Shown here in pieces: positions 49,589-51,801 of a DNA stretch of 64,000 bases. The notes beneath the pieces are model-generated. The model made no database searches, was not told the origin of the DNA, and was given only the letters and a program-made list of their open reading frames with translations. The stretch is from positions 62,001 to 126,000 of the forward strand of contig NZ_JAPDMU010000003.1 of NCBI RefSeq assembly GCF_026319325.1, given 5' to 3'. The translations under genes and the position numbers were made by a program. This stretch comes from Methylophaga sp. OBS3 (lineage in GTDB: Bacteria; Pseudomonadota; Gammaproteobacteria; Nitrosococcales; Methylophagaceae). How positions within the stretch are numbered: position 1 is the stretch's first letter; each line of letters starts with the position of its first letter.

Positions 49589-51634
49589 CTAGTCTGCAAG
49601 CTCAATACAATTCCGGCCATTTTGTTTGGCGGCATACATAGCCTTATCTGCTCGCTCTACCAAAGCGCGGCGACTTTCCCCTGATTGCCACTGGGCAACA
49701 CCAATACTAATCGTCACCTGCCCTACGCCTGCGAACTGCACTTTCGCAATATGTTTGCGCAACCGATCAGCCAATTCCCCAGCTTCATTTAGAACGCTAT
49801 TTGAAACCAGCACGATAAACTCTTCACCACCCCAGCGACCTAAAAAGTCACTGCCGCGCAATAGGCTATGTACTTCAGTTGCCAGACGTTTTAACACCTC
49901 ATCACCAGTTTTATGGCCAAATTTATCGTTCACTTGTTTGAAGTGATCAACATCAAACAGTAAAACTGAAAAAGGTCGTTGATAACGTGCTGCGGCGGAT
50001 AATTCAGCATCCATCGCTTGCTCAACACGATAACGATTCCAAACTTGGGTGAGTGAATCGGTATGAGCGATTTCTTGCAGCCTTATATTTGCGGCATTGA
50101 GATGCTTATTTAGCAAGTTAATCTCATTAACGCTCAATGCCACCATTAAGTCCTCAGCCAAATCCAGCGCCGCCTTTTTCTCAATTTTTAACCATTCGGC
50201 ACTGCGGTCATTGATGATTTCAACGCAAACCTCTCGTGGCATATCATCAGATTTTCGTAACTCGCCACTACAGATATTTTTGAGCTCATCATAATGGCCA
50301 AGCCACTTTTGTTCTTGCTGCATTGCCATACGAAACATCAACATCCAGCCTTTTTTTGCTGACTCACTGGGCAGGCGGACCGCCATTAAGCCGACGCGAT
50401 TTCTTAAGTCAACCAAATCATTTAATTCGGTTTGATTTAGTTGGCTGGAGAACCAAATGACATCATCAGGAAAGTTGTGGGTCAGCCACTTAGTAATAAT
50501 TTCTATTTCATAGGCCGCCAAGGTCTCTGAGAAGCAAGAGACTTTATTGTTGTAACTCAAAGCAAAACCACACAAATCAAACAGCTTTAACCAGCTATCA
50601 ACATGGCTTTTGAATAATTCATCTGGGCTGCTAAAAATTGTTCGCTCACTGGAAAGTAGCTCACGACTGTCCATGACTTGCTGTAAGAAAGACACATCCT
50701 TAATCTGCTGTAAAAGAAATAAGCGTTGTGAGGCCATTCTCACTAAATTAACCGCAGCATCACGCTGTAATGGCGAAAGCTCTTGTGCGGAAAAACTATG
50801 ACAAACTACTAATCCCCATAAAGTACGATGACTGTGAATCGCAATACTCAACGTGGCTTTAACCCCAATCTCAGTCAAGTTATCTTTATGCATCGAAGAT
50901 ATACGACGTAAATAACCATACGTCATATCGATTTTGGGTAAGTCAGCGGATATAGCAGGTATTAATGGCACTGATGGCGCATCAATATCGGGTACTGAGC
51001 GAACCGCATTTTTGCCATATCTTTCACGAACCCACTTAGGGATAACATAAGCCGGTAGGCGATATCCCAATAAGCGACGCTCGGGTTGTTTGCAAGTTTC
51101 GGCGACCACCGTCATATTGGCATCACTATCAAACTCGTTTAACACCACCCGTTCAAACCCTGTAATAGCTTGAACACCTTGTGTCAGGGTTTGTAACAAA
51201 CTGGGGATATCATTTGCATCAGCGAGATAACTTAGCCACTCATTCACGAGTGGTAATAATCGCTGCTCTCCTGCTCGCGATAAAGGCTCAAACTCAACAA
51301 TAATGTCATCACTACTTCGATAAGCCATAACATAAAAACGCTGGTAATGACCTCGAACTTGGCGGTTGATTACCATTGCTGCCGAGAGGCTTTCACGATT
51401 TTTTAATAAGCCAGTAAGCCTAGATAGCAGAATGCTACCGAGGAGATCTTGTGGCGAAGAGGCCAAAGCATCTTCGGGTAAAATGCCGAGAAAGTCAGAC
51501 AGATTAGCACTGACTTGTCGGACCTTTACCATTGCTGCATCGAAACGCAACAAGCAGCCATTATTTTGAATGACTTGTGAGTCACTTAACGCAGAAGTAT
51601 TTCCATCAGCTTGCTGCGAGACTAGGTTAGCCAT
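49589..51634 (-). CDS. Phytochrome-like PAS-GAF-PHY-GGDEF diguanylate cyclase lacking most chromophore-site residues
   Basis: A 681-residue protein. It has a PAS-2-like domain (about 17-115), a phytochrome GAF domain (about 140-290), a PHY-like domain (about 320-500) and GGDEF (about 520-681). AGGAG precedes the ATG at 51634. The cyclase site is GGEEF (602-606) with an inhibitory RGSD (593-596), so the output looks active. By eye against Deinococcus BphP, the N-terminal biliverdin Cys is missing, PASDIP is PAYVIP (V197), and Tyr positions are N166 and N252. His249 and His279 are kept. Whether any bilin binds is open. Confidence 0.85.
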   Translation of the reverse strand: MANLVSQQADGNTSALSDSQVIQNNGCLLRFDAAMVKVRQVSANLSDFLGILPEDALASSPQDLLGSILLSRLTGLLKNRESLSAAMVINRQVRGHYQRFYVMAYRSSDDIIVEFEPLSRAGEQRLLPLVNEWLSYLADANDIPSLLQTLTQGVQAITGFERVVLNEFDSDANMTVVAETCKQPERRLLGYRLPAYVIPKWVRERYGKNAVRSVPDIDAPSVPLIPAISADLPKIDMTYGYLRRISSMHKDNLTEIGVKATLSIAIHSHRTLWGLVVCHSFSAQELSPLQRDAAVNLVRMASQRLFLLQQIKDVSFLQQVMDSRELLSSERTIFSSPDELFKSHVDSWLKLFDLCGFALSYNNKVSCFSETLAAYEIEIITKWLTHNFPDDVIWFSSQLNQTELNDLVDLRNRVGLMAVRLPSESAKKGWMLMFRMAMQQEQKWLGHYDELKNICSGELRKSDDMPREVCVEIINDRSAEWLKIEKKAALDLAEDLMVALSVNEINLLNKHLNAANIRLQEIAHTDSLTQVWNRYRVEQAMDAELSAAARYQRPFSVLLFDVDHFKQVNDKFGHKTGDEVLKRLATEVHSLLRGSDFLGRWGGEEFIVLVSNSVLNEAGELADRLRKHIAKVQFAGVGQVTISIGVAQWQSGESRRALVERADKAMYAAKQNGRNCIELAD

Positions 51635-51801
51635 TTGTAAACTCCTGCAACTCGATGCTGCTTGGGCTGCTAACAACACTAGCGTGATTATAAATCTTCA
51701 AAGCCACAAATGTGGGGTTAATCATTTTCGTAAAACGCCAATGATCAATTAGAGTCCATTATTCGCGAGTGATTAAAATGTGCTTTAACTTAGTTATAAA
51801 C

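Follow-up and report, generated by a model that had tools for sequence, protein, structure and literature searches.

The 64,000-nucleotide stretch of the Methylophaga sp. OBS3 genome (contig NZ_JAPDMU010000003.1, positions 62,001 to 126,000; 'the window') carries at 49589..51634 (-) a gene for a 681-residue protein, labelled P0001, in which a bacteriophytochrome-type light sensor seems to be reused for something else. An exact open frame and four Pfam domains in the order PAS-GAF-PHY-GGDEF, together with phmmer, an AlphaFold2 model and a fold search, identify P0001 as a putative dark, PadC-like protein and bear out the architecture proposed in a preliminary description of this DNA that was made from its letters. 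Along the minus strand, where all features given below lie, the protein comprises an N-terminal segment that holds no Cys in the alignment (residues 1-21, 51572..51634; residues 1-18 have a predicted local distance difference test score (pLDDT) <50), a PAS_2 domain (residues 19-117, 51284..51580; Pfam 3.9e-14), a GAF domain (residues 143-303, 50726..51208; 7.1e-7), a PHY domain (residues 337-499, 50138..50626; 3.9e-10), a coiled-coil linker that by linker count equals that of IsPadC in length (50060..50164) and a GGDEF domain (residues 523-675, 49610..50068; 9.4e-46). The PAS-GAF-PHY sensor module of bacteriophytochromes is thus present both by Pfam and in the predicted fold. The cyclase motifs are intact, as had been described: GGEEF occupies residues 602-606, and the inhibitory RxxD of diguanylate cyclases, here RGSD at 593-596, sits five residues before it.

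The ATG of P0001 has a Shine-Dalgarno GGAG seven bases 5' of it (51642..51645). Read from this start, P0001 has no Cys until C27, beyond the IQ motif (I22-Q23). An alternative longer start, GTG 51679, would add a Cys 26 residues before IQ (11 residues in the canonical relative L110), but unlike the ATG it has no Shine-Dalgarno support. P0001 is the single PHY match in its genome (assembly 94.7% complete). When genome contigs were scanned with P0001, the matches were mostly to GGDEF; in the 2.3-Mb genome G000, 33 of 34 matches lay at the GGDEF end.

Chromophore site

P0001 and 22 relatives were aligned with MAFFT, giving 23 rows of which 13 are referred to as dark and 10 as canonical; the start codons of the dark rows were picked by judgement, and Tyr176, His260, Tyr263 and His290 are named by the numbering of the Deinococcus protein DrBphP. 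A Cys before the IQ motif, the biliverdin-binding residue of bacteriophytochromes, occurs in 0/12 dark rows and in 9/9 canonical rows that cover the region, although some dark frames (L010, L012) open further upstream with a Cys there, farther from IQ than the canonical one. Tyr176 and the tongue motif PRxSF are each found in 0/13 dark and 10/10 canonical rows, and P0001 has N166 (51137..51139) at the Tyr176 position. The Asp of DIP is kept in 8/13 dark rows and in all ten canonical ones; in P0001, PASDIP has become PAYVIP (194-199), with V197-I198-P199 replacing DIP (51038..51046). His260 is kept in seven of the 13 dark rows, including P0001 (H249), and lost in six, and His290 is kept in 11/13, again including P0001 (H279, 50798..50800). 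N252 stands where canonical rows have Tyr263 (H249 to N252, 50879..50890).

Most of what the preliminary description had said of this site holds, namely the missing N-terminal Cys, the altered DIP, the two pocket Tyr replaced by Asn and the two retained His. The alignment with relatives, unlike the outcome that it had named as a refutation, places no Cys at the chromophore position and Val in place of the DIP Asp. Its reading of the tongue motif as PREVC was shifted by three residues: in both the MAFFT alignment and the phmmer alignment to IsPadC, PRxSF lies opposite D463-D464-M465-P466-R467 (50234..50248) and C470 lies opposite the Trp that follows the motif, which rules out PREVC as a PRxSF remnant. 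With PRxSF aligned to DDMPR, P0001 has kept none of the tongue residues Arg, Ser and Phe. As a control, 25 further phytochromes from a phylum-wide draw, taken from best-scoring loci and so biased towards good matches, all have the Cys, Tyr176, the DIP Asp, His260 and PRxSF, and 24 of the 25 keep Tyr263. Across the group the alignment shows an apparently staged loss: no dark row retains Tyr176, the tongue motif or, where that region is covered, the Cys, and some have also lost pocket residues. Possible substitute anchors were also considered and rejected. The GAF position that carries the chromophore Cys in cyanobacterial phytochromes is Met248 in P0001, C27 has a Cys counterpart in 4/9 canonical rows, and no Cys in the 23-row alignment is shared by all dark rows and confined to them.

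Conservation of the pocket was assessed by comparing identity at 20 GAF positions, the chromophore contacts of DrBphP, with identity at the other 141 GAF positions. The near canonical rows give 0.88 in the pocket and 0.45 in the rest of GAF, and six Methylophaga relatives (L011-L016) give 0.98 and 0.76 (P = 0.0002, resampling). For P0001 with L010 and L017 the values are 0.23 and 0.44, and for a spread of seven dark rows 0.38 and 0.41. Pairwise, four canonical pairs agree at 17-19/20 pocket positions and 57-79/141 positions elsewhere in GAF (L110-L142: 19/20 and 79/141, p = 0.0004), P0001-L010 at 8/20 and 77/141, and P0001-L013 at 11/20 and 70/141. The 8/20 shared with L010, set against 17-19/20 in canonical pairs, indicates that the extra constraint on the pocket would be gone. 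By these identities, such constraint appears to be kept in one Methylophaga group (L011-L016) and is not seen in P0001's group; the P0001 pocket looks not clearly special any more and not clearly scrambled either.

Distribution, neighbourhood and pigment supply

P0001 is not the single odd protein that it was at first taken to be. The gene is carried by 10/24 Methylophaga genomes, being intact in eight, split at a contig end in one (G011) and interrupted in one (G019, whose copy, L018, is broken by several stop codons in the frame that matched). Of the 13 dark rows, 12 (P0001 among them) run full-length with no stop inside, and L017 is a fragment lying at a contig end. Elsewhere in the family and order, none of the 17 genomes sampled gave a match; in the order of G402, 8/244 did: three genomes of genus g273 and two of genus g310 carry dark genes, and G518, G517 and G513 carry canonical ones, as do G163 and G442. 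In G402 itself (L173:5569-7574) the dark gene is split over two frames at the tongue; it is whole in the two other g273 genomes. Judged by these sequences, the dark type is no lone oddity but a group spread over three or more genera within one class.

A maximum-likelihood tree places the 13 dark rows together (support 84/94; 82% of 200 bootstrap trees), and the Shimodaira-Hasegawa-like approximate likelihood ratio test (SH-aLRT) supports the grouping at 93 without the motif columns and at 69 with the sensor alone. On this tree a single origin of darkness is preferred to a separate one in each genus. Darkness may, however, have arisen separately in each genus: the dark group is not recovered from the GGDEF domain by itself, which needs two changes, and L017 and IsPadC form long branches.

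In the window the neighbours of P0001 encode a Usp protein and the release factor RF3. The same setting recurs in Methylophaga, where uspA adjoins the dark gene in all ten genomes carrying it and prfC then follows in eight of the ten. In G010 (L157:3-2394) uspA lies directly beside prfC with the gene absent between them, an empty site. In G007 the dark gene and prfC are separated by an AbiEi/AbiEii toxin-antitoxin pair (L177:8956-10709), and in G009 (L176:3813-5051) a phage-type integrase gene takes the place of prfC beside the dark gene. A frame of 112-121 residues is present between uspA and the dark gene at L177:5821-6183, L178:7831-8166 (this one without a Pfam match) and L179:5473-5808; no such frame was seen in the 167-base gap between the two genes of the window. 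In g273 (L172:3026-7291, also L171 and L173), sigma-70-type, MotA_ExbB and MotB_plug/OmpA genes and then the dark gene follow one another on one strand, with ~25 bases between the MotB_plug + OmpA gene and the downstream dark gene, an order that suggests motility control in g273.

Pigment supply differs between the two types. In agreement with the earlier remark that no heme oxygenase gene is adjacent, tblastn with five heme-oxygenase queries (four from near canonical genomes, G517's included) found no heme-oxygenase-like sequence in the 64-kb window. Such a neighbour is frequent for bacteriophytochromes, though not a requirement. Beside the dark gene a heme oxygenase was found in 0/15 dark genomes by Pfam and in 0/15 by tblastn (2-14 kb around the gene; the whole window for P0001), the latter search being applied to the dark flanks because the Pfam model missed the canonical heme oxygenase of G517. 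A heme-oxygenase-like sequence adjoins the phytochrome in all five near canonical genomes, recognized by Pfam in G163 and G442, by Pfam score in G518 and G513, and by similarity to that of G442 in G517 (E 1.5e-30). One of the five, the G518 frame next to its canonical phytochrome, is interrupted by an inner stop (L168:7105-7728). Genome-wide, 9/24 Methylophaga genomes have a heme-oxygenase match above the Pfam cut-off. Among the ten that carry the dark gene, three (G020, G007, G011) have strong matches away from it and six have no match at E 0.01 (two of the six are <90% complete). P0001's own genome has one weak Pfam match, on another contig, whose far better fit to Haem_oxygenas_2 (115 bits vs 24.4) rules it out as a bilin enzyme. 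The gene for this Haem_oxygenas_2 protein (L133:1501-2121) adjoins AMP-forming-ligase-like and short-chain-dehydrogenase-like frames.

Relation to IsPadC and coupling to the cyclase

The closest solved relative of P0001 by sequence is IsPadC, a phytochrome-activated diguanylate cyclase (PadC) from Idiomarina (phmmer E 1.7e-96 for PDB 6et7 and 3e-96 for 5llw). The AlphaFold2 monomer model (mean pLDDT 89.2) has its best fold match in the same protein (5llw_B; E 1.7e-59, template modelling score 0.82 by query length, root-mean-square deviation 5.2). The two are alike in domain order, predicted fold, linker length and GGEEF cyclase. They differ in that red light activates IsPadC, which carries the N-terminal Cys, DIP and PRxSF, whereas P0001 lacks all three motifs. 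As defined in PMC9587094, a PadC has four features: the N-terminal Cys, DIP in GAF, PRxSF in the tongue and GGDEF/GGEEF. Of these P0001 has only GGEEF, with VIP for DIP and DDMPR in the tongue, so that it falls outside PadC by the published definition, and on its sequence it is read here as PadC-like in its working, without light.

A published parallel is HmPadC+14 of Halomonas meridiana, which, according to PMC9587094, lacks all essential motifs yet clusters with IsPadC, and whose expression was too poor for purification. By that description it resembles the dark rows in its missing motifs, and in rows L138-L141 the linker exceeds that of IsPadC by seven residues, as that of the +14 class would; unlike P0001, it belongs to another genus and another linker class. 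No light-blind PadC beyond HmPadC+14 was found in the literature searched, much of it accessible in part and with many subscription papers outside its scope. More distantly, RpBphP4 of Rhodopseudomonas palustris is reported to have turned into a redox sensor and to have given up its biliverdin Cys; it is like P0001 in being a bacteriophytochrome without this Cys and unlike it in having a histidine-kinase output. A 2014 paper by Fixen bears a related title, 'Apo-bacteriophytochromes modulate bacterial photosynthesis'.

Coupling between sensor and cyclase was approached through selection and linker length. The ratio of non-synonymous to synonymous substitution rates (dN/dS) in the sensor is 0.075 for L012/L014, 0.126 for L011/L016 and 0.045 for L140/L141 (L138/L139 is saturated), compared with 0.126 for the canonical pair L110/L136, and by domain it is 0.049-0.179 in PAS, GAF and PHY of four near Methylophaga pairs. 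These values show purifying selection on the sensor in three dark pairs outside P0001's subgroup. With GGDEF as the yardstick, sensors change somewhat faster among dark pairs (median ratio 2.15; canonical pairs 1.65), so that constraint is reduced but still there. Dark linkers have 35 residues (nine rows, as in IsPadC) or 42 (four rows), and canonical linkers 28, 35 or 42 (six near rows) or 25, 28, 30 and 34 (four outgroup rows), in a count that begins two residues before the native I495 of IsPadC, of which the differences alone are meaningful. From purifying selection on the sensor and linker steps of seven taken together, signalling seems to be retained in the dark proteins.

A probable cyclase without light and its alternatives

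P0001 is probably a light-blind PadC descendant, a light-independent synthase of cyclic di-GMP (c-di-GMP) with a non-light input. Its PAS-GAF-PHY module would fold and dimerise like that of IsPadC and would drive the GGEEF cyclase via an IsPadC-type helical spine and coiled-coil linker, but it would no longer hold biliverdin or photoconvert. The cyclase would make c-di-GMP with a basal activity that the apo sensor sets and that probably exceeds the activity of a dark PadC; it may be tuned by a small molecule as ligand, by the redox state or by a protein partner. The engineered IsPadC variant D199L, altered at the position of P0001 V197, is instructive here: in PMC11035067 its photocycle is lost, 50-70% is apoprotein as first purified, before biliverdin addition, and dark activity is up ~5-fold with a light effect of 1.6-fold left; the tongue variant R467S also has raised dark activity. 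From the behaviour of D199L, a light-independent P0001 cyclase with raised basal activity is expected. Several observations pull the other way. The pocket residues H249, H279, R212, R243 and Y206 are still present, the drop in pocket identity between P0001 and L010 is not significant alone (p = 0.24), and P0001 and IsPadC still share 10/20 pocket positions and 42/141 elsewhere (p = 0.08). The dN/dS pairs exclude P0001 and its nearest relative L010, where synonymous divergence (dS) is saturated. Apo-IsPadC is moreover unstable in E. coli, according to PMC6433076, so that an apo sensor needs some compensation.

Of the two meanings offered in the preliminary description, a light-independent sensor is best supported. 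The other, a chromophore that is of another kind or not covalently bound, has less support for P0001 and keeps some plausibility for L011-L016 with their constrained pocket. In this unlikely alternative the GAF pocket would bind a tetrapyrrole non-covalently (biliverdin, heme or protoporphyrin IX) and sense a ligand, redox state, gas or, weakly, light. The two pocket His and two pocket Arg that are kept, the pocket of L011-L016 (0.98 against 0.76, P = 0.0002) and the strong heme-oxygenase matches in three gene-carrying genomes speak for it, as does the competition of protoporphyrin IX with biliverdin in DrBphP D207A (PMC11035067); against it stand the pocket of P0001, L010 and L017 (0.23 against 0.44), the Haem_oxygenas_2-type match alone in P0001's genome with no match in six of the nine other gene-carrying genomes, and the loss of His260 in six dark rows.

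That P0001 acts as a thiol redox sensor, in the manner in which the Cys-less RpBphP4 is said to, seems highly improbable, since no Cys is found in every dark row and in dark rows only; C181 (9/13 dark rows, missing in L138-L141, and 2/10 canonical) and C367 (8/13 and 1/10) count in its favour, and C278 is in 13/13 dark but also in 7/10 canonical rows. Least probable of all is a sensor decaying towards gene loss beside a simply constitutive cyclase. Such decay would fit the patchy presence of the gene (10/24 Methylophaga genomes), the stops in the G019 copy, the frame change at the tongue in G402, the empty site in G010 and the saturation of dS on P0001's own branch, where selection is not measurable, but 12 dark rows including P0001 keep a complete frame with no internal stop, three dark pairs have a sensor dN/dS of 0.045-0.126 and linker lengths change in steps of seven.

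More broadly, the entire dark clade, spanning three or more genera of its class, may have made one switch from light to a non-light input in which the Cys, Tyr176 and tongue motif were lost first and the pocket later, with sensor-cyclase coupling under selection; this wider scenario is put forward tentatively, at a little short of an even chance. In the usual view, phytochromes signal by bilin photochemistry that the tongue relays to the helical spine. Proteins in which spine, linker steps and cyclase are retained without the Cys, Tyr176 and tongue motif would be a natural test of which parts are needed without light, and the group may yield phytochrome sensors with a different input.
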